The notes under the pieces: generated by a model
What the model saw: the letters and a program-made list of their open reading frames with translations, nothing else
Told to the model about the DNA's origin: nothing
Database searches by the model: none
Virus record (IMG/VR): IMGVR_UViG_3300042691_014417
Coordinates: 1-36,677 of that record
Strand: one strand, 5' to 3'
Origin: a virus
DNA length: 36,677 bases
Program-made: the position numbers and the translations under genes
In this document: piece by piece, positions 22,639 through 36,677 of the stretch
How positions within the stretch are numbered: the stretch's first letter is position 1
Layout: each line of letters begins with the position of its first letter

Positions 22639-24366
22639 ATGAAATTCTCAGATATCTTTAAAAAAGAACACAAAATAAATCTTGCTGGCTTATCCCAGCA
22701 AGATGTTCTTTTATTGAGAGAAGATGTTTCTGAGTTTAAAACTGGTACTAAATTTACAGTCAATCCTAAAAATAAGAGTGATAAATCTGTAGAAATAGGC
22801 GATGGTCTTACCGAATTACATCTAGTTGATGAAAAGGGTAAAACTGTCCTATTTTCAGGAAATTACTCAAAAATTGCCTCATTATTTACAATTTTAGAGG
22901 AAAAAACACCTGAACCTCAAATTATAGTTGTTGAAAAAACAATTGTTAATGAAATAAAAAAGAAACAAGTAATAGAAGGCCGCGAAGGCCCAATAGGACC
23001 ACAGGGGCCGAGGGGTGATGTCGGGATCCGAGGAGAACTTGGGCCTGTTGGGGCCAAGGGAGAGCAGGGAGAACGCGGTGAGGTTGGAGAACAGGGTCCG
23101 CAGGGCATTGAAGGTCCAATTGGTCCTAGAGGCCCAATAGGCCCACAAGGCCCGAAGGGCGATAAGGGTGATAAAGGCGACCAAGGAATTGCCGGGGAGT
23201 TAGGCCCGATAGGCCCACAAGGCCCCAAAGGCAACCAAGGAGAGGCTGGAGAGCCGGGTCTTGACGGCCCACAAGGAGAAAGAGGTCCAATAGGTCCCCA
23301 AGGCCCCAAGGGCGATAGAGGCGATCATGGATTACCCGGACCAAGAGGCCTAATGGGTTCACAAGGACCAAAGGGAGAGCGTGGAGAACCCGGAGAACAG
23401 GGTCCAGAAGGTCCAGAGGGTCCGATGGGCCAAGATGGTCTTCCCGGGGAGAAGGGCGATAAGGGAGATCCCGGTGTCGTTTCTGCCAGTTTCCCTTTAG
23501 TCTATGATAAAAAGTCAGCAAACATAAGTTTTGATACTAAATTCTTAGATGATAAAATTACTAAGATTGCTGTAGATCCACTTCTTGCTAGCGGTGGTAG
23601 CGGTCTTGGTGTTAAAGAAAATGGGTCAATACTTGTAAAGACGGGTGTTGATTATTTGGATTTTAGAGGTTCCATTGATCTTACTAGACAGGGTAGAACT
23701 GTTATAGTAACTGGAACTAGCTCTGGATCAGGAACTGGTATAACTGGCCCTACAGGACCCACTGGCCCAGCGGGAGCTACGGGTAATGTCGGTGCTACTG
23801 GGGACATTGGACCCACTGGTGCTACCGGAGTCACTGGTGCAGATGGCTCAACCGGGCCGATTGGACCGACAGGTGCTACCGGAGTCACTGGTGCAGATGG
23901 TTCAACTGGTCCTATGGGGCCAACAGGTGCTACTGGGGTTACTGGATCTATTGGACCTACAGGGCCAACTGGACCATCTGGTATTACTAACATAAATGGT
24001 ATTACTTTATCACCAATAACTATACGAGAAGGTGATGGTATCTTGTTAGGTACTAATCTTTCTACTAAAACAATTTCTATATCGAATGAATGGGGACCAT
24101 TAGAAGATTCTGCGGCTACCCTTGATGATTATATTTTAGTAAGTTTAAACGGATTAATAGGAAGTCCTTCATTATTTGCTGGTTCTGGTATAACTTTTTC
24201 TGTTGGCGCGCAGGGAATTACAATTTCATCGACGCTTCCTAAATTTACAGAAGGAGTTACTGCTCCAGCAAACCCTATAGCAGGAGATAGATGGTATAAT
24301 ACTGATGATGGCATAATCTACACTTCAGTCACAAAATCAGGTTCACAAATTTGGATAGTTGGATGA
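22639..24366 (+). CDS. Collagen-like virion protein with two Gly-X-Y tracts
   Basis: The 575-residue protein has a 110-residue N-terminal domain with no known match. Tract 1 (residues 114-281) has 56 unbroken Gly-X-Y triplets, rich in Pro, Lys and Glu. A non-collagen spacer follows (about 282-366), then tract 2 (367-447), rich in Thr. The C-terminal domain ends with the tail-protein motif [15 protein letters not shown], which also ends the small protein at 6401. Such trimeric triple helices form fibres in phages and bacterial spores. All nine Lys in tract 1 sit in position Y. The protein is likely a tail or head fibre that holds the glycans made by the cluster before it. Its start is one base after the GT2-TPR stop. 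Confidence 0.88.
22978..23481 (+). repeat. Collagen tract 1, 56 Gly-X-Y triplets
   Basis: In-frame 9-base periodicity with Gly at every third codon. The local GC content is far above that of the surrounding genes. Lysine is always in position Y (nine of nine), mostly within Pro-Lys-Gly, Asp-Lys-Gly and Glu-Lys-Gly. Confidence 0.9.
23737..23979 (+). repeat. Collagen tract 2 with a 54-base tandem repeat
   Basis: 27 Gly-X-Y triplets, with Thr in position Y 18 times and no Lys. Bases 23818-23871 and 23872-23925 are near-identical 54-base (18-residue) repeats, followed by a partial third copy, a sign of recent slippage growth. Confidence 0.88.
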
Positions 24367-24367
24367 G

Positions 24368-24375
24368 GATAAATA
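24368..24375 (+). promoter_or_regulatory. Late-type promoter box for the fibre gene
   Basis: GATAAATA differs from the T4 late box TATAAATA at the first base. It is four bases before the ATG at 24380, so the transcript would start at or within one base of the start codon. No ribosome-binding site is present. Confidence 0.5.
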
Positions 24376-24379
24376 AAGT

Positions 24380-27271
24380 ATGCCGATAAATTTCCCGAAT
24401 TCACCAAGCATTGGAGCTACCTACGACTACGAAGGTATTCATTATATTTACAATGGTGTAGGCTGGGTCAACAAAAGTATTTTTGGTATTTCAGCTGGAA
24501 CTAACATTAGCTTTACTAATTACAATGGTACTGGTCCTATAGTTATATCTACAACGAGTTCTGGCGGTATAACAAGTGCAGTGACTTCCTTTAATGGTCT
24601 TACTGGAGATGTGGTTGGTGTATCTAGTTTTAATGGTTACACTGGTGGGGTTACTGGTTGGGCGTATTACAATGATGGTATTAATAGCGGTTTAGATACC
24701 GACTTAATACAGGGAATATCAGGGCAAAGATTTGTTGAAAATCTTCAGACCGGACTTTTATATGGGGGTCTTCTTCAAGTAAATGCTGGAAACTCTGCTT
24801 ATTTTGATGTTTCCGCTGGGGTTGGAATTATTTCTACAGCAGGCGCATCTTTAACTGCATATCCAACCCCGTCGTTAAGTTATATAACATGGAGTTCGTT
24901 TACTGGAGTGACTGTAACTGGTATTACTTCTGATGAAGAAACTTGGATTTCGATTAATTCTTCTGGAAATTTAGTACAACAAAACACTAAATGGTTGGAT
25001 AGCCAGTTCGATAATTCAATTCCTCTAGGCGTATTGATTCATCCAAACAACACAACCATAAACTTCGCAGTTGCCATTCCCCATGTGGCATACGGTCAAC
25101 CTTCACAGCTAGATCCATTTGTAAGAGCATTCGGGCCAATCAAAATTTCTGGCCACGAAATAAGCGCAAACGGAGCCAATTTACAAGTAAATAAGAGCAC
25201 TGGTGCTGCATATCTGATTGGTAGGAATTACGCTACAAATCCCAGCAGTCCAAACGTAGTAGAAGATACAAATGCTACTCCAATCAGCACGATGTATCGA
25301 TACTATAGAGATGGTTCTGGTAAATTTACAGTAGTTACAAATTCATCCATAGATCCTAGTAAATATGATGATGGAACTGGAACTTTAAATACAGTACCCG
25401 GTGGTCAATATACCATTCAGAGACTTTTTTTCCTACCCGGTGTTCCAACTGTTCTTGCATCATACTATGGAAGAGAACTATACAATTCTATAGAAACTGC
25501 ACAAGCAAACATTCCGTTTGAACAATTTACTGAAGATGATTCTACTGCTAGCCTTGGTGTGTTTGCAGGATATTTGATTGTTAAGAGTGGAGCAACACAA
25601 TTAAATAACACCGCTGATGCTAAATTCATCAACTCTGGAATTTTTAGAAATCTTTCTAACATCGGTGGCGGTGGAGTTGCCGCAACTAGCCTTGACGATT
25701 TGAGTGATGTCACTATAACTTCAGCAGCAAACGGCCAAGTACTTAAATATAGTAGCGGGGTGTGGGTTAATGATTCAGTTTCAAATCTCAACTTAGTATC
25801 GGCAGCTGTTGCAGGGTCTGGTATCAATGTTTCCGGTGCTACTGGATCTGTTACTATTACCAATACTGGTGTCTTGAGTTTTAATGGCAATACAGGAGCA
25901 GTTCAAGGCGTTTCGTCCATTAACGGAAGCACTGGTGCAATTACCAATGTTGCATTTACGAATGTGGCACAGACCTTTAGTGCTTTGCAAAGTTTCAGTG
26001 TTGGTGTTAGTGCAGGATATGTTGATACCGATACCATAAAAAGTGATTTATTGACTATAGATCCTTTTAATTTGTTTCCTGATTCTACAGGAATTAGATT
26101 ATATCAAGATAATGGAATTTCCCAATATTATACTACTATAAAGGGAGCAGGACCAAATGCATCTGCAAACCAAACTATTACTTTACCTAATGATACTGGC
26201 ATAGTTGCACTTACTAAAAATGTAGTAAGTAGTTTTAACGGCAATACAGGAGCAGTTCAAGGTGTATCAGCTGCTGTTGCCGGATCTGGTATTAGCGTAT
26301 CTGGTGCAACTGGTTCTGTTACCATTACTAATACTGGTGTCTTGAGTTTTAATGGCAATACAGGAGCAGTTCAAGGTGTATCATCCATTAATGGAAATAC
26401 TGGTGCGATTACTAATGTTGCATTTACGAATGTAAATAATAATTTCAGCGTAACTCAAAACTTTGCACAAGGTCTTACTGCTGCAAATACGGTTGAGTTT
26501 TATGCAGATACGAGTTATTTCTATTCATCAATAAAGGGAAATAGATTCTTAACTGTTTCGCCGGGTGCGCAGAATTTTATAAGTGGTAATGGTGCTTCGT
26601 CAATTATTATTAATCAATCTGCTGGCAATGCAGTTTATATTGGTGATGCTGATATAGCAAACAACGGAACCTATATTCGTGTAGAAGATAATACTTCAGC
26701 CATTGCTTTTAATTATAATACAACTTCATATACATTCCCAACAACCGTTGGAAGTCCGGGACAAGTTTTAACTACAAATGGATCTAATCCTGCGACCTTG
26801 TCGTGGAGTACAGCAACGGGATCTGGTGGGGGGGTATCTTCATTCAATGGATTGACTGGAGCTGTGGAAGGAGTATCATCTCTTATTGGGGGTACTGGAA
26901 TTTCTGTGTCCGGTGCTACTGGAACTGTAACGGTAACCAATCAGGGTGTAAGAACTTTTAACGGTGCTACTGGAGACATATCATATTCTGGATTAAGTAG
27001 ATATATTACTAGCATTTCAACAAACACAAATGCGGGATCTACTGCTGGTACTGATTTCGTTTACATATGCACGGCGGGTCTTACATTAACCTTACCCACA
27101 GCGGCATCAAATACAAATAGATATTCTGTCAAGAATACAAGTTCATCTGTAGTAAAAGTTTTTACAACATCATCTCAATCTATCGATGGTATAACTCTTG
27201 GTTATAATTTGACTAGACAATATCAAGCAGTTGATTTAGTAAGTGATGGTTCTAATTGGTTTGTAATCTAA
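24380..27271 (+). CDS. Long repetitive tail fibre-like protein
   Basis: This 963-residue protein begins with FPNSPSIGATYDYEG, then YNGVGWV, a common anchor motif in phage tail proteins. It then carries many copies of a motif of the form SxFNGxTGAVxGV and SGATGSVTITNTG, which suggests a beta-rich fibre shaft. The C-terminus (LTLPTAASNTNRYSVKN, then SSSVVKVFTTSSQSIDG and LVSDGSNWFVI) is the standard tip/knob end of many phage fibres. A 170-base segment is duplicated 468 bases apart (25796-25965 and 26264-26433), with a looser third copy near 26877. It is likely a host-binding fibre and is followed by two more fibre-type proteins. Confidence 0.85.
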   Translation: MPINFPNSPSIGATYDYEGIHYIYNGVGWVNKSIFGISAGTNISFTNYNGTGPIVISTTSSGGITSAVTSFNGLTGDVVGVSSFNGYTGGVTGWAYYNDGINSGLDTDLIQGISGQRFVENLQTGLLYGGLLQVNAGNSAYFDVSAGVGIISTAGASLTAYPTPSLSYITWSSFTGVTVTGITSDEETWISINSSGNLVQQNTKWLDSQFDNSIPLGVLIHPNNTTINFAVAIPHVAYGQPSQLDPFVRAFGPIKISGHEISANGANLQVNKSTGAAYLIGRNYATNPSSPNVVEDTNATPISTMYRYYRDGSGKFTVVTNSSIDPSKYDDGTGTLNTVPGGQYTIQRLFFLPGVPTVLASYYGRELYNSIETAQANIPFEQFTEDDSTASLGVFAGYLIVKSGATQLNNTADAKFINSGIFRNLSNIGGGGVAATSLDDLSDVTITSAANGQVLKYSSGVWVNDSVSNLNLVSAAVAGSGINVSGATGSVTITNTGVLSFNGNTGAVQGVSSINGSTGAITNVAFTNVAQTFSALQSFSVGVSAGYVDTDTIKSDLLTIDPFNLFPDSTGIRLYQDNGISQYYTTIKGAGPNASANQTITLPNDTGIVALTKNVVSSFNGNTGAVQGVSAAVAGSGISVSGATGSVTITNTGVLSFNGNTGAVQGVSSINGNTGAITNVAFTNVNNNFSVTQNFAQGLTAANTVEFYADTSYFYSSIKGNRFLTVSPGAQNFISGNGASSIIINQSAGNAVYIGDADIANNGTYIRVEDNTSAIAFNYNTTSYTFPTTVGSPGQVLTTNGSNPATLSWSTATGSGGGVSSFNGLTGAVEGVSSLIGGTGISVSGATGTVTVTNQGVRTFNGATGDISYSGLSRYITSISTNTNAGSTAGTDFVYICTAGLTLTLPTAASNTNRYSVKNTSSSVVKVFTTSSQSIDGITLGYNLTRQYQAVDLVSDGSNWFVI
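25796..26433 (+). repeat. 170-base direct repeat, 468-base period, in the fibre gene
   Basis: Bases 25796-25965 recur at 26264-26433 at a 468-base (156-residue) offset and high identity, with an exact core AATACTGGTGTCTTGAG that continues for over 40 bases. A shorter version of the inner motif is also found near 26231 and 26835. Confidence 0.85.
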
Positions 27272-31821: not shown

Positions 31822-32328
31822 ATGGAATCACTAGGAATTTTTAAGTTACATCCCACGGTCATGAACCCGTCTCTTGCTACAGCAAATTCGGCCTGTGTTG
31901 ATGTCTATGCGTTCATTCAAAATAAAGAAATCTCAGTCTATGATCGGTACAATAATAAAAGTACTATTAAGACTGACGAGAAATCAGTCTCCATTCGCAT
32001 TGGACCCAAGGAAAGAATCCTAGTCCCCACAGGAATAATTCTTGACATTCCAAAGCACTTCTCAGTGCGTATGCATCCTCGCTCTGGTCTTGCGATCAAG
32101 AAGGGTCTGGCTCTGGTCAACTGCGAAGGCGTAATCGACTGCGACTATGTGGAAGAACTAATGATTCCGCTAGTCAACACAAGCGATATTTCGTATGATA
32201 TCGGTCATCAAGAACGAGTTGCCCAAATGGAACTTGTTCGTACTGAACATTTTGTTTATCATCATATCTCTGAAAGACCAAGTATAAAGACAGATAGAAG
32301 CGGTGGCTTCGGGAGCACAGGCGAATGA
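31822..32328 (+). CDS. dut: dUTPase
   Basis: The 168-residue protein has all five motifs of trimeric dUTPases: ACVDVYA (24-30), HPRSGLA (85-91), GVIDCDY (103-109), GHQERVAQ (128-135) and DRSGGFGSTG (158-167). It hydrolyses dUTP to dUMP, keeping uracil out of phage DNA and feeding dTMP synthesis. There is an extra loop of about 20 residues between motif I and II (around residues 35-55). It opens the second DNA metabolism block, separated from the first by the glycan and fibre genes. It overlaps the next gene by four bases (ATGA). Confidence 0.95.
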   Translation: MESLGIFKLHPTVMNPSLATANSACVDVYAFIQNKEISVYDRYNNKSTIKTDEKSVSIRIGPKERILVPTGIILDIPKHFSVRMHPRSGLAIKKGLALVNCEGVIDCDYVEELMIPLVNTSDISYDIGHQERVAQMELVRTEHFVYHHISERPSIKTDRSGGFGSTGE

Positions 32329-32645
32329 ACAGAGAAGAACTTTTTAAGCATCATGAAGAGCTGTCTCAAACTGCTCTTCAAATCATGAAGAAGAAGAATC
32401 ACGACTACGCTGGAAATAGCGGAGCACAACCATTTGCAAATTTTGAACGATGTGAAGCAATGGGTATTTGCAGCACAGAACAAGGATTTCTTGTCCGTAT
32501 CACAGATAAGGTATCTCGCCTGAGTACCTTTGCAAATGCGGGAAAACTAGTAGTCGATAACGAAGGTTATCAGGACGCAATTCTAGACATCATGAACTAT
32601 TGTGTTCTATTCTCGGCTTATATAAAGTCAAAGGATGATGCTTGA
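32325..32645 (+). CDS. Nucleotide modification-associated domain protein (DUF1599-like)
   Basis: The 106-residue protein follows the DUF1599/Nmad1 pattern: KKKNHDYAG, PFANFERCE, then FLVRITDKVSRLSTF and QDAILDIMNYCVLF. This all-helical family is related to MazG/dUTPase-like pyrophosphohydrolases and is found next to nucleotide-modification genes. Next to dut, it could act on a nucleotide or help control dNTP pools. Its stop codon is inside the -35 box of the gp43 promoter. Confidence 0.8.
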   Translation: MNREELFKHHEELSQTALQIMKKKNHDYAGNSGAQPFANFERCEAMGICSTEQGFLVRITDKVSRLSTFANAGKLVVDNEGYQDAILDIMNYCVLFSAYIKSKDDA

Positions 32646-32669
32646 TTTGTGTTCAACTGCCAGTATAAT
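32642..32669 (+). promoter_or_regulatory. Promoter for gp43, leaderless type
   Basis: TTGATT (32642-32647), a 16-nt spacer and TATAAT (32664-32669) are followed by exactly six bases and the ATG at 32676. The TGA stop of the gene before is at 32643-32645, within the -35 box. This excludes the upstream in-frame GTG at 32649 as a start. Confidence 0.7.
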
Positions 32670-32675
32670 CGATAC

Positions 32676-34166
32676 ATGAACTTTTACACATGTGTTGAGA
32701 TTCGCGGCAACAAGATTCTTTATAGAGGGGTGGAAGATGGGAGTCGGGTCTGTAGGGAAATTCCTTACAGACCCACTCTTTATTCCTATACCCACAAATC
32801 TTCTGACTGGAAGACGCTTGATGGCCGTGCGGTAGAACCAATCAAGCCCGGTACAATCACAGAGACTAGGGATTTTTTAGATCAGTATGCTAATATCTCT
32901 GGGTTCTCTATCTTTGGTCAAACAGATTTCATTTACCAGTTTATTGGTGAAGAATTTCCCAATGATATCGATTACAAGATCGATCAAATCGTTACAGCAT
33001 TTATCGATATCGAAACCAAGTGTGAGGCTGGATTTCCGAACATCGAAACTGCCAATGAACAGGTGATTGCGATCACCGTGCGGATCAAGAACAAGTCTTA
33101 TGTCTATGGTTTAGGCACTTTCCATATTGATAATCCAAATGTCAGTTGCAATCAGTATGACAATGAAAACCAAATGCTTAAGGACTTTATTGAGTTTTGG
33201 GAGCAACAGAAGCCTGACATTGTAACTGGATGGAACGTCAGATTCTTCGATATTCCATATCTTTATAATCGAATTTCTTACCTGTTTGGAGAAGATACGG
33301 CCAATCGCCTATCCCCTTGGAAGAAAGTCATCAAGAAGAAGATTGAAACTAAGTCATCTCGCGGGGAGCAAACTGCGTGTGATATTATTGGCGTATCTAC
33401 TCTAGACTACTACGAGTTGTATAAGAAGTTTACCTATACCAATCAGGAATCTTATCGACTGGATTATATTGCCTCCGTCGAACTAGGTGAAAAGAAGCTT
33501 TCATATGATGAGTATGACAGCTTGCGAGAGTTCTACAAGCAAGACTTCAATAAGTTTATTCACTATAACTTCCATGACGTAGAACTTGTCTTTAAGTTAG
33601 ATCAAAAGATGAAGTTGATTGAACTCGTTCTTGCAGTGGCATATTCTGCCAAGGTAAATCATGAGGATGTTTATAGCCAAGTTCGAACTTGGGATACCAT
33701 CATTTACCACGAACTTCTGAAAGATAAGATCGTAATTCCTCCAAAGAAGTCTGCGGTCAAGGAGCGGCAGTACGAAGGTGCATATGTCAAGGAACCGATT
33801 CTAGGCATGAATGATTGGATTATCAGTTTAGATCTAAATAGCCTCTACCCCCATTTAATTCAGCAATATAATTTATCGCCAGAAACAAAAACAGACCGCT
33901 CTTTTCTGTTTGTGCGTAATGGTCTGAAACCCATGGATATTTTGGAAAAGAATTCCAAGGCCGTTCAATATCTAGAAATGGCAAAGAAGCATGATATTTC
34001 TGTTGCCGCAAATGGTGTAGGCTTCACTAGGAATAGCCAAGGCTTTCTTCCTCGACTCATGGAGAAGATGTATGCCGAACGAAAGCATTATAAAGAATTG
34101 ATGCTTGAATCCGAAAAAGAAATGGTAGCAATAGAAGAAGAATTAAAAAGAAGAGGAATAATTTAA
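32676..34166 (+). CDS. 43: DNA polymerase gp43, N-terminal part (43A)
   Basis: The 496-residue protein is the first part of a family B DNA polymerase. It has the 3'-5' exonuclease motifs DIETK (111-115), VTGWNVRFFD (183-192) and YNFHD (297-301), and polymerase motif A SLDLNSLYP (384-392), followed by ERKHYKELML in the start of the fingers. It ends soon after at the site of a homing endonuclease insertion; the last residues RRGII are probably partly from the insert. Motifs B and C are on the second fragment (34900-36020), so the two proteins must meet to form an active enzyme, as in phages where gene 43 is split into 43A and 43B. The ATG is fixed by the promoter. Confidence 0.93.
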   Translation: MNFYTCVEIRGNKILYRGVEDGSRVCREIPYRPTLYSYTHKSSDWKTLDGRAVEPIKPGTITETRDFLDQYANISGFSIFGQTDFIYQFIGEEFPNDIDYKIDQIVTAFIDIETKCEAGFPNIETANEQVIAITVRIKNKSYVYGLGTFHIDNPNVSCNQYDNENQMLKDFIEFWEQQKPDIVTGWNVRFFDIPYLYNRISYLFGEDTANRLSPWKKVIKKKIETKSSRGEQTACDIIGVSTLDYYELYKKFTYTNQESYRLDYIASVELGEKKLSYDEYDSLREFYKQDFNKFIHYNFHDVELVFKLDQKMKLIELVLAVAYSAKVNHEDVYSQVRTWDTIIYHELLKDKIVIPPKKSAVKERQYEGAYVKEPILGMNDWIISLDLNSLYPHLIQQYNLSPETKTDRSFLFVRNGLKPMDILEKNSKAVQYLEMAKKHDISVAANGVGFTRNSQGFLPRLMEKMYAERKHYKELMLESEKEMVAIEEELKRRGII

Positions 34167-34908
34167 GTTCAAGTGCTATTGGTTATAAATACTTTCGGAG
34201 GAAGTTTATGAGAAAGTATTTAGTGTATAAAACAATCAATACAATTAATGAAAAATTTTACATTGGAGCGCACGAAACTGATGATGAAGACGATTCTTAT
34301 CTTGGTAGTGGCATTCTTTTAAATAAAGCTATAAAAAAATATGGTAAAGATTTATTTAAAAGAGAAATACTAATTAGATGTTCTTCAAGTGAAGAAATGT
34401 TCAACGAAGAGCAGAGATTGATATCTGAGCACATTGAAAACCCATTATGCTACAATCTTAAAAAAGGTGGTATAGGAGGATGGGACTATGTAAATCGAAG
34501 TGGTTTAAATCGCGGCAGCAGAAACCCAATGAAAAATTTAAAAATTAGAAAAAAATGTTTATGTGCTGCTAAAAAAACAAAAGAAAAAAATCCAGAAAAA
34601 TACCGACTGATAGCAATAGAAAATCTTAAAAAAGCAACAGAAAAAAATATTGGAACTACTAAATCCGATTTTTTTAAAAAAACAATTAGTAAAAAATCTA
34701 AGCAGTATTGGAAGAAAAATAAAGAAAAAATGCAGAATGCATTATCTTCTTGGTTCAAAGTAATAGCACCAAATGGTGAGGAATACACGACAAATAGACT
34801 AGAAAACTTTTGCACTGAAAGAAAATTACCGTATACTACCCTGTGGAAAACCAGTAAAACTGGTATCACAGCAAATAGAGGCCCCTCAAAAGGATGGAAA
34901 TGTCAAAA
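34160..34908 (+). mobile_element. Homing endonuclease insertion splitting gene 43
   Basis: Coding sequence of the polymerase stops near 34160 and resumes near 34909, in a different frame. The insert of about 750 bases holds a late promoter, a strong ribosome-binding site and a GIY-YIG endonuclease. Only about 40 bases are non-coding, so there is no room for a group I intron core. An A/T-rich AATT occurs at both edges. Edges are approximate. Confidence 0.7.
34184..34202 (+). promoter_or_regulatory. Exact T4 late promoter box and ribosome-binding site
   Basis: TATAAATA (34184-34191) is a perfect T4 late box. GGAGGA at 34197-34202 lies five bases before the endonuclease ATG. It matches the common use of late promoters by phage homing endonucleases. 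Confidence 0.75.
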
Positions 34909-34924
34909 AATTACGCAAATATGA
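34208..34924 (+). CDS. GIY-YIG homing endonuclease
   Basis: The 238-residue protein has the GIY-YIG nuclease domain at the N-terminus: YLVYKTINTINEKFYIGAHET (LVY...YIG), then DDSYLGSG and a KKYGKDLFKREIL helix with a later catalytic Glu in EEMFNEEQ. A Lys-rich linker (about 110-180) follows, and a C-terminal DNA-binding module (FKVIAPNGEEYTTNRLENFC, then GWKCQK) of the NUMOD/IENR kind. It resembles SegA-like and I-TevI-like enzymes. It should cut endonuclease-free gene 43 alleles near the insertion to spread the element. Its last 25 bases overlap the start of the second polymerase fragment in another frame. Confidence 0.88.
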   Translation: MRKYLVYKTINTINEKFYIGAHETDDEDDSYLGSGILLNKAIKKYGKDLFKREILIRCSSSEEMFNEEQRLISEHIENPLCYNLKKGGIGGWDYVNRSGLNRGSRNPMKNLKIRKKCLCAAKKTKEKNPEKYRLIAIENLKKATEKNIGTTKSDFFKKTISKKSKQYWKKNKEKMQNALSSWFKVIAPNGEEYTTNRLENFCTERKLPYTTLWKTSKTGITANRGPSKGWKCQKITQI

Positions 34925-36020
34925 CTACGGAGGAATTGCAATCGCTTCGTGGGCAGATAGAGAACGATATTTCAAAATATCGTAATTTTCAGTTGGCTAG
35001 AAAAATCCAACTGAACTCTGCCTACGGCGCGATTGGTTAGGTAACGAATATTTCCGCTATTACGACGAAGAGATTGCCGAAGCAATTACACTCTCTGGTC
35101 AGCTTTCTATTCGCTGGATCGAAAACAAGATCAACGAGTTCTTGAACAAGATGCTCAAGACGAATCATGATTATGTTGTTGCCAGTGACACAGATTCTAT
35201 CTACATCAACATGGGTCCACTGGTAAACACTCTGGCAAAGGGTAAGTCAACTGAAGAAATCGTGACTTATCTTGATAAGTGCTGCAAGGAGATCATCGAA
35301 CCGTACATCACGAAGTCCTATGATGAACTTGCTAATTTCATGAATGCCTATGCAAACAAGATGTTCATGAAGCGCGAATCAATTGCCTCAAAGGGTATCT
35401 GGACAGCCAAGAAGAGGTACATGCTTCTGGTTCATGATTCAGAAGGTGTTCGTTACACCAAGCCAAAGACCAAGATCATGGGAATCGAAACATCCCGGTC
35501 ATCTACTCCACAGATTGTGCGCGAGGAGTTGAAGAAGTGTATCGATATCATTCTGACCAAGGACAATCCTACTCTGATCAATTACATTGAAAGCTTCAGA
35601 AAGAAGTTCCGTAAGCTTGCCCCGGAGGATATTGCATTCCCTCGTTCAGTCAACGGAGTCAAGGACTATACAGATTCGTTTACCATCTATAAAAAGGGGA
35701 CTCCTATTGCCGTCAAGGGAGCATTGATTTACAATCACTATATCAAGAAGCACAAATTGGAAAAGAAATATCAGTTGATTCGAGATGCGGATAAGATTAA
35801 GTTTGTTTATCTGAAAACCCCAAATCCCATTGCTGGTTGCTTTGGAAAGGATCAAATCATCTCCTTCTATTCATCTTTGCCGAAGGAACTTGATTTATCC
35901 TCTTATATCGACTATGATACTCAGTTTGAGAAGGCGTTCTTGGATCCACTCAAGAGCATAATTGAAGCAATTGGGTGGAAGACAGAAAATAGAAACACAC
36001 TGGAATCTTTATTTACTTAA
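34900..36020 (+). CDS. 43: DNA polymerase gp43, C-terminal part (43B), with in-frame stop and shift
   Basis: The second part of the polymerase starts at ATG 34900 (AGGA at 34891-34894, five bases upstream). The first 46 codons carry motif B (LARKIQLNSAYGAIG), then comes TAG at 35038-35040. The reading frame continues one base back, with NEYFRYYDEEIAEAITLSGQ from 35043, ASDTDSIYI (motif C) and WTAKKRYMLL, to the TAA at 36018-36020; it ends with LESLFT, like the clamp-binding tail of gp43. Without a shift, only a piece from ATG 35142 could be made, lacking motif B. With removal of five bases (35038-35042) the product is 371 residues, 867 with 43A, a normal length for this enzyme. Confidence 0.85.
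35035..35042 (+). other. Candidate translational bypass site GGT-TA-GGT
   Basis: Gly codon GGT (35035-35037), then stop TAG (35038-35040), and a second GGT (35040-35042) in the frame that continues the polymerase. Peptidyl-tRNA hopping from the first to the second GGT skips five bases and gives the family sequence YGAIG-NEYFRYYD with no extra residues. T4 gene 60 uses the same arrangement (GGA, TAG, later GGA). A tandem duplication of five bases (GGTTA/GGTAA) may be its origin. Confidence 0.4.
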
Positions 36021-36021
36021 T

Positions 36022-36225
36022 ATGGCAAACATTCACGAATTCAAGCGTTCTATTCCCGTTAAGACACCTCTCGGAGAAGGTTGGATTGTACTTCTCTTTA
36101 ATAATGGAGAATATGCAAATAGCCAATATATGGTGATTCTTGATAATGGGGATATTCGGTATTTCAGCACTACCCAACTCAAGGTTGTGGATAATGCTAC
36201 AATTGGTCTAACTAACGGAGAATAA
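36022..36225 (+). CDS. Small conserved protein upstream of uvsX
   Basis: The 67-residue protein starts at ATG 36022, one base after the polymerase stop; an upstream ATG at 35962 lies inside the polymerase and is unlikely. The sequence KTPLGEGWIVLL, then YMVILDNGDIRYFSTTQL has the strand pattern of a small SH3-like or Sm-like barrel. Small genes of this kind (T-P-L-G-E-G) are found just before uvsX in several T4-like phages. Function is unknown. Confidence 0.65.
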   Translation: MANIHEFKRSIPVKTPLGEGWIVLLFNNGEYANSQYMVILDNGDIRYFSTTQLKVVDNATIGLTNGE

Positions 36226-36226
36226 T

Positions 36227-36677
36227 ATGGATTTTTTGAAGGAAATAATTAATGTCTCAGGAAACAAATTCGCAAGTAAAGTCGAAGATGGACTTGATGG
36301 ATCTGATGTTTGCGGCTATATTGATACTGGGTCTTATACTTTTAATGCTCTTTTATCTGGTAGCCTATTTGATGGTCTACCTAGTAACAAGATTACCTGT
36401 TTGGCTGGTGAATCTGCTACTGGTAAGACTTACTTCAGCATTGGTGTTGTTGCACAATTCTTGGCAGCGAATCCAGAAGGTATCGTTCTTTACTTCGACA
36501 CAGAACAAGCAGTAACCAGTGACATGTTCACTGAGCGTGGAGTCGATCCTAAGCGCATTGCTGTATTTCCTGTAGAAACAGTAGAAGAGTTCCGCCATCA
36601 GTGCTTGACAATCGTTGACAAGGTTCTTGCAACAGATGAATCTGAGCGCAAGCCAATGATGATTGTTCTTGACTCGC
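36227..36677 (+). CDS. uvsX: UvsX recombinase (RecA-like), N-terminal part
   Basis: The first 150 codons of a gene that runs off the window end. Walker A GESATGKT (61-68) follows LPSNKITCLA, and then YFDTEQAVT, MFTERGVDPKRI and the start of the Walker B strand (MMIVLDS). It matches the T4-type RecA homologue UvsX, which forms filaments on single-stranded DNA with the help of UvsY. The ATG has GGAG (36217-36220) six bases upstream. The position after gp43 fits the T4-like cyanophage order. Confidence 0.92.
   Translation, partial: MDFLKEIINVSGNKFASKVEDGLDGSDVCGYIDTGSYTFNALLSGSLFDGLPSNKITCLAGESATGKTYFSIGVVAQFLAANPEGIVLYFDTEQAVTSDMFTERGVDPKRIAVFPVETVEEFRHQCLTIVDKVLATDESERKPMMIVLDS

Follow-up and report, generated by a model that had tools for sequence, protein, structure and literature searches.

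A probable ribosome-bypassed mini-insert behind motif B of the DNA polymerase gene in T4-like phages with a homing endonuclease cassette

Introduction

What becomes of a phage DNA polymerase gene when a stop codon directly follows the codons of motif B and the remainder of the enzyme is encoded in another frame? This question is raised by the window, i.e. the whole stretch of 36,677 nt of viral DNA analysed here, whose T4-type DNA polymerase gene lies in three pieces, designated 43A, 43B prime and 43C. In the initial annotation the stop was placed at a take-off/landing pair for a possible 5-base ribosome hop, with a link to a homing endonuclease gene (HEG) as in T4 gene 60, and a -1 frameshift was named as an alternative. 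Up to now, phage bypassing has been studied essentially on a single mRNA, and passages of a 2010 review describe it as apparently unique to T4 gene 60, while asking about other genes of T4-related phages (PMC3014915). According to passages of a 2016 review, shorter counterparts have long been presumed, with no natural in-frame stop-hop known (PMC5009743). Among the titles listed in searches of an open-access library, none concerned such an element in gene 43.

Organization of the polymerase locus and the five extra bases

The features of the locus, with the codons named according to the hop reading, are as follows.

32649..34166, + strand: 43A, N-terminal portion of the enzyme, comprising the exonuclease domain and the beginning of the polymerase domain, ending in EELKRRGII; Pfam DNA_pol_B_exo1 E 1.6e-28, DNA_pol_B E 1.5e-17
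34177..34200, + strand: homing-site-like sequence before the HEG, overlapping TATAAATA (34184-34191), which we take to be a T4-type late promoter
34208..34924, + strand: freestanding GIY-YIG (Seg-like) HEG, between 43A and 43B prime; match to phrog_314 (homing endonuclease), E 1.8e-36
34900..35040, + strand: 43B prime, 46-codon ORF with motif B, which restarts the polymerase, ends in NSAYGAIG and overlaps the end of the HEG by 25 nt
35035..35037, + strand: GGT encoding Gly 46 of 43B prime, the candidate take-off codon
35038..35042, + strand: five extra bases TAGGT, with the stop TAG at 35038-35040 and the candidate landing codon GGT at 35040-35042
35043..36020, + strand: 43C, remainder of the enzyme, opening with NEYFRYYD... 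and including motif C and the thumb; phrog_262 DNA polymerase E 6.3e-131

The stop and the landing codon overlap by one base, the G at 35040, and an alternative start of 43B prime at 34894 is possible. The sequence past the take-off codon, GGTTAGGTAAC, encodes NEYFRYYD... in the other frame, which is opened by AAC at 35043 and closed by TAA at 36018-36020. There is no start codon near the beginning of 43C, the first in-frame ATG/GTG/TTG lying 33 codons downstream. The GIY-YIG label of the HEG was assigned by eye and from the homologues L118 and L143, whose matches are below cut-off; the HEG itself matches NCBIfam grpIintron_endo at E 8.5e-7, under that model's cut-off, and no Pfam family at E 0.001.

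In the close relatives L002-L006 (81-91% identity over 43C) and in the 23 other loci displayed, GGN is followed by AAY without TAGGT, and all these 28 relatives, out of 80 loci, are uninterrupted at motif B. Judged by the nearest named relatives of the polymerase, the host might be a cyanobacterium. Deleting TAGGT from the window gives the family sequence, and the earlier statement that the exact family sequence remains without these bases is thus borne out by the uninterrupted relatives. Among loci lacking the insert (non-carriers; 78 of the 80 loci in 61 clusters, with L016 and L073 omitted as motif B was not matched there), the first codon past motif B specifies Ser in three clusters and Asn in the other 58, and is a stop in none of the 61.

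TAGGT recurs in four other IMG/VR contigs (L089, L091, L092 and L093), each with this cassette and a HEG listed at 100% identity, so that a comparison with relatives sharing the endonuclease, as proposed at the outset, finds the same insert with the same HEG. Inserts at the same site are present in 46 further contigs. Because of the identical insert in four contigs and the site-matched inserts in 46 more, an assembly error is excluded, being refuted by recurrence. The wider explanation by an assembly error or a dead gene could draw on the fact that nearly all carriers of an insert are metagenomic contigs, no carrier having been recognised among the listed matches to named phage records; it deserves next to no credence in view of 19 insert sequences in 51 records of 32 clusters, the purifying selection and the retention of the insert without a HEG.

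Recurrence of the insert

The 51 carriers, i.e. the window and 50 IMG/VR contigs, fall into 32 clusters, which are not independent events, with 19 distinct inserts. Counted by cluster, the insert measures 5 nt in 14, 9 nt in eight, 1 nt in three, 6 nt in three, 8 nt in two and 10 nt in two, lengths that cover all three reading frames. The stop lies directly after the take-off codon in 32 of 32 clusters, and the first insert codon is TAG in 25 clusters (the three with a +1 insert included), TAA in four and TGA in three.

A pattern of motif B with TAG directly behind it had 14 matches in IMG/VR, all in polymerases, as were all three matches to the TAA/TGA version. A broader TAG pattern matched polymerases in 39 of 41 cases, including the earlier 14, and L104 and L127 were dropped as chance matches outside polymerases. 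Since these first scans required a stop, length-open scans were run in which motif B had to be followed, after an arbitrary stretch of 1-31 extra bases, by the next conserved residues, no stop being required. Scan A returned 46 stretches (38 true inserts and eight unrelated), scan B 18 (three true, five uninterrupted polymerases and ten unrelated) and scan C 21 (16 true, all within the 38 of scan A, and five uninterrupted). An in-frame stop (TAG, TAA or TGA) opens every one of the 41 true inserts from these scans. In 257 Gb of bacterial and archaeal genomes (GTDB), motif B followed by TRR was matched 13 times, never in a polymerase.

In a tree of 43C, which leaves out two of the 32 clusters with too short a 43C, well supported branches require the carrier label to change at least 13 times. 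Seven carriers with insert lengths of 1, 5, 6 and 9 group without non-carriers, on a stem of weak support (96/66). The initial observation of a stop codon between two Gly codons in the polymerase is confirmed, with inserts at this site in 51 records, and the wider family, in which inserts of six lengths and all three frames each start with a stop, speaks for the hop.

Glycine codons and reading frames

A Gly codon stands directly before the stop in all 32 clusters, this codon being part of the search patterns. The matched Gly codons that had been pointed out hold for the window, but not as a general rule: GGN just before the resumed frame is found in 29 of 32 clusters, with the two Gly codons identical in three bases in 14 of these and alike in GG only in the other 15, where GGT to GGA is the commonest pair (7/15). 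Examples, written as take-off.gap.landing, are GGT.TA.GGT, GGT.TAG.GGA, GGT.TAACT.GGT, GGC.TAGCTA.GGC and GGA.TGACTAA.GGT. From the sequences of these 29 clusters we infer that a Gly-to-Gly hop would restore the family protein in any frame. A landing codon is missing in the three +1 clusters (GGT T AGC; L103, L109 and L125 with their copies), where 43C would have to be reached by a +1 shift at the stop or be started separately.

Because the insert lengths fall in all three frames, neither one frameshift nor plain readthrough can serve as a common account. Stop-codon suppression was rejected, as it suits only the +6 and +9 clusters. The -1 ribosomal frameshift at GGT TAG, which would add Leu-Gly, agrees with the frame arithmetic of the +5 inserts (reading LGNEYFRY) and the +8 inserts, but fails for the +1, +6, +9 and +10 clusters. 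Such a shift would put residues into motif B, where extra residues occur in 0 of 61 non-carrier clusters, and ATT GGT TAG (35032-35040) is presumably not a slippery heptanucleotide for -1 re-pairing. We regard this frameshift as extremely unlikely.

Up to the take-off codon, 43B prime is mostly 44-46 codons long (41 in L119 and L154), and split genes without an insert are of similar length before the equivalent point. The length of 46 codons, common to gene 60, was considered as a hop signal and dropped for this reason. When ten carriers were each compared with a non-carrier, the landing codon agreed with the Gly codon of the latter in five; the landing GGA of L090, for example, is the codon of its uninterrupted near-twin L040, with 147 of 150 bases alike behind it, and the landing codon may in such cases be that of the recipient.

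Before the insert, in the motif-B codons at 35023-35028 of the window and their equivalents, Tyr is encoded by TAC in 30/32 carrier vs 22/61 non-carrier clusters (Fisher p 4e-8) and Gly by GGC in 22/32 vs 6/61 (Fisher p 8e-9), these tests being made on non-independent clusters. The synonymous bias might act as a signal for the hop, mark the endonuclease site or reflect shared descent of the cassette.

Translation of the resumed frame

Pooled over 14 hand-chosen carrier pairs, the uncorrected pN/pS behind the insert is 0.05 for codons 1-8 and 0.09 for codons 1-30, and the peptide upstream of the take-off codon is conserved as polymerase. By this measure the codons after the stop look to be under purifying selection and the resumed frame looks to be translated from its first codon. 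Part of the selection may predate the cassette, because in L082/L086, L105/L112 and L085/L090 43C has diverged while the last 40 codons before the insert differ at 0 or 1 position. In L112/L123, L103/L125 and L134/L154 the cassette has diverged as well, with the same constraint on 43C. In the 178.6-kb contig that holds L118 (G001), which is possibly incomplete, the interrupted locus is the only polymerase match in protein and Pfam searches.

Translation of 43C could also follow from termination and reinitiation, yielding three separate chains, namely 43A, a 46-aa 43B prime and a 43C started anew. One split is tolerated in phage 25, whose 43A and 43B are described in passages of PMC2988022 as separate chains that copurify with polymerase activity, and 70S ribosomes are stated in part of PMC11194080 to be able to slide during re-initiation on polycistronic genes. 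Starts suitable for a separate chain are found in the five +1 carriers, whose resumed frame has a start codon 38 or 8 codons upstream, as well as in L088 and L113, with a start codon one codon past the resumption. In 38 of the 45 carriers scanned for starts (out of 51; L105 ends at the contig end and L123 was not scored), however, the resumed frame has its first ATG/GTG/TTG 1-37 codons downstream at no fixed place, and a fresh start there would often lose conserved residues such as FR. The low pN/pS of codons 1-8, despite the usual start lying further on, equally argues against separate chains, which would moreover leave the second Gly codon unexplained and would split the enzyme through motif B, a harsher cut than that between 43A and 43B. 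Separate chains are therefore considered unlikely.

RNA structure, introns and tRNA genes

No stem-loops were detected at or before the take-off codon, the mean fold z ranging from -0.48 to +0.39 over six folding windows; across the site it was +0.39 in carriers vs -0.35 in non-carriers. In L089 and 11 other carrier loci no group I intron reached the gathering score. With E up to 1, positions 32600-36300 of the window contained none at the site, and two matches elsewhere were far below the gathering score. A group I intron core was found only in L129 (Escherichia phage G2285) and L130 (Aes120). In these two named phages a HEG is accompanied by a group I intron match (217 nt in G2285 and 236 nt in Aes120) within motif B at about the same point. 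This arrangement would favour removal of the insert from the mRNA, by a ribozyme or another RNA event. An intron cannot, however, fit into 1-10 nt, the carrier loci scanned hold none, and removal from the mRNA gives no reason for a stop in every insert, making this explanation very improbable. In the 24 loci scanned, 11 tRNA/tmRNA genes were found in four, with tRNA-Gly(TCC) in L110, L113 and L122, and the phage tRNA genes showed no pattern with the inserts.

Association with homing endonuclease genes

A HEG or its remnant lies upstream of the insert in 24 of 27 assessable carrier clusters vs 0 of 61 non-carrier clusters (0/11 split and 0/50 unsplit), where at least 900 nt upstream were required, which left out five of the 32 carrier clusters, and where the queries were the carriers' own HEGs, so that other nuclease types in non-carriers would escape. 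In 22 clusters the assignment rests on similarity to another HEG. In L119 and L133 the ORFs at the HEG place match only themselves, that of L119 having NUMOD3 motifs. The ORF beside the +8 insert (L133:281-1057) shows a helix-turn-helix and weak matches of restriction-nuclease type (MTES_1575/DUF559), at or below cut-offs. In L103, L113, L114 and L122 only the C-terminal part of the HEG remains, and in L117, L140 and L154 no HEG was found; the insert is kept in all seven.

Nine carrier pairs were compared for an exchange boundary, taking matches out of 30 before and behind the insert. The match drops at the insert from 30 to 20 in L085/L090, from 30 to 25 in L082/L086, from 30 to 24 in L105/L112 and from 30 to 22 in L109/L125, and L114/L128 are near-identical before the insert and differ right behind it. 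The step is small in L108/L122 (29 to 26) and hardly present in L102/L117 (30 to 29), the window/L092 (30 to 29) and L085/L088 (29 to 28). The step seen in several pairs is expected if recombination after a cut stops at this point.

Positions 34177-34200 of the window match its own empty site at 17 of 24 bases (shuffle p 0.004) and the intact site of L006 at 19 of 24. A degenerate motif-B site before the HEG start was found in ten of 19 carrier leaders tested (shuffle p < 0.05). By analogy with I-TevI, 34177-34200 is probably an operator for autorepression of the HEG. From these associations, cleavage by the HEG at motif B and its block by the insert would follow.

Proposed mechanism

The insert, its recurrence in all three frames, the stop, the flanking Gly codons, the HEG association and the protein-level constraint on both sides are best joined by a HEG cassette in a split polymerase gene, whose cut site is probably blocked by a mini-insert that the ribosome bypasses (mini-bypass). 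The cassette would occupy the split gene in the order 43A / HEG / 43B and have its own cutting site in the motif-B codons, where a few extra bases would shield it from its own endonuclease. In this arrangement a Gly codon and a stop would be followed by no more than four further bases and a second Gly codon, with the stop and the second Gly codon sharing one base in the 5-nt form. The ribosome would stall when the stop occupies the A site while peptidyl-tRNA-Gly is in the P site, upon which the tRNA-Gly would detach, slide 5 to 10 nt and re-pair with the second GGN codon. Decoding would then restart at the next codon, AAC in the window, giving the uninterrupted family protein, and the block of the endonuclease site at the DNA level would leave no trace in the enzyme. 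As the site lies within an invariant motif, a blocker has to vanish before the protein is complete; in other T4-like phages this task would fall to a self-splicing group I intron at roughly this position, and here to the mini-bypass. We infer from the sequence that one polypeptide is made, by hopping, and the 5-base hop around TAG, HEG-linked like T4 gene 60, is the reading that the data support.

Comparison with known systems

In the T4 record, the first ORF of gene 60 comprises 46 codons, the last being GGA; behind it come TAG, a gap of 50 nt with GGA at its end, and TTA. The carriers resemble gene 60 with MobA in the Gly codon, the UAG directly after it, the gap, the Gly landing and the out-of-frame resumption, as well as in the splitting of an essential replication gene with a HEG upstream, as far as passages of PMC3014915 and PMC11194080 describe it. 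Take-off at codon 46 is common to gene 60 and the window, a trait found also in insert-free split genes. In contrast, the gap measures 5-10 nt here instead of 50, gene 60 uses stem-loops whereas the carriers show no stem-loop signal, TAA and TGA are used as well, and the landing codon often matches in GG only. Furthermore, the carriers differ in the gene concerned, in a GIY-YIG rather than HNH HEG and in recurrence in many phages. By analogy, the window would work like gene 60 bypassing, rather than being a proven member of that system.

Seg43(25) of Aeromonas phage 25 and its intron-bearing relatives share the order 43A / GIY-YIG HEG / 43B and the interruption in motif B, according to passages of PMC2988022. 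Aes120 and G2285, however, fill the site with a group I intron and the carriers with 1-10 nt that include a stop. I-TevI likewise has a homing-site-like sequence over a late promoter before the endonuclease gene, matching at 15 of 20 positions in a passage of PMC2988022 as compared to 17 of 24 in the window, where by contrast the HEG is freestanding and the operator is putative.

Synthetic stop-hops in E. coli, as outlined in part of PMC5009743, have matched codons around a stop, with 9 nt decoded for one amino acid; they have the length range and layout of the carriers, but are constructs. The mitochondrial bypass elements of Magnusiomyces capitatus are also short inserts bypassed by the ribosome with tolerance of imperfect codon matches, but differ in being mitochondrial, in being spread over 81 positions instead of a single HEG site and in having an unused codon in the A site, per passages of the same review (PMC5009743).

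It is fairly likely that programmed bypassing extends beyond T4 gene 60, and that a minimal, structure-free stop-hop (Gly-stop-Gly, 5-10 nt, any frame and stop, plus a +1 form) has been built repeatedly by a mobile endonuclease system into the catalytic core of the polymerase in numerous T4-like phages, outliving the endonuclease. The nucleases involved may be of more than one type, with GIY-YIG in most and the nuclease-like ORF of L133 as a possible second kind. If the hop reading is true, a one-off curiosity becomes a recurrent device, and the 32 natural clusters, with 19 inserts in every frame and a constant stop, allow a direct test of the minimal requirements of a hop and of the reason for the ever-present stop. 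It also suggests how a selfish endonuclease might guard its site in an invariant active-site motif with the protein unchanged. For annotation, such polymerase genes would otherwise be labelled broken.

Other features of carrier loci

In L092, a 4-kb contig, 43A consists of two ORFs, due to a further frameshift or a sequencing error. In the contig of L110 (G005), 43A (24237-25673) and 43B (32312-33418) have about 6.6 kb between them, and tRNA genes with a permuted tmRNA lie upstream of 43B. A small ORF (about 89 aa; M..GD.VT.LTVAGEF.GKL) occupies the split between 43A and 43B prime in L134 and L154.
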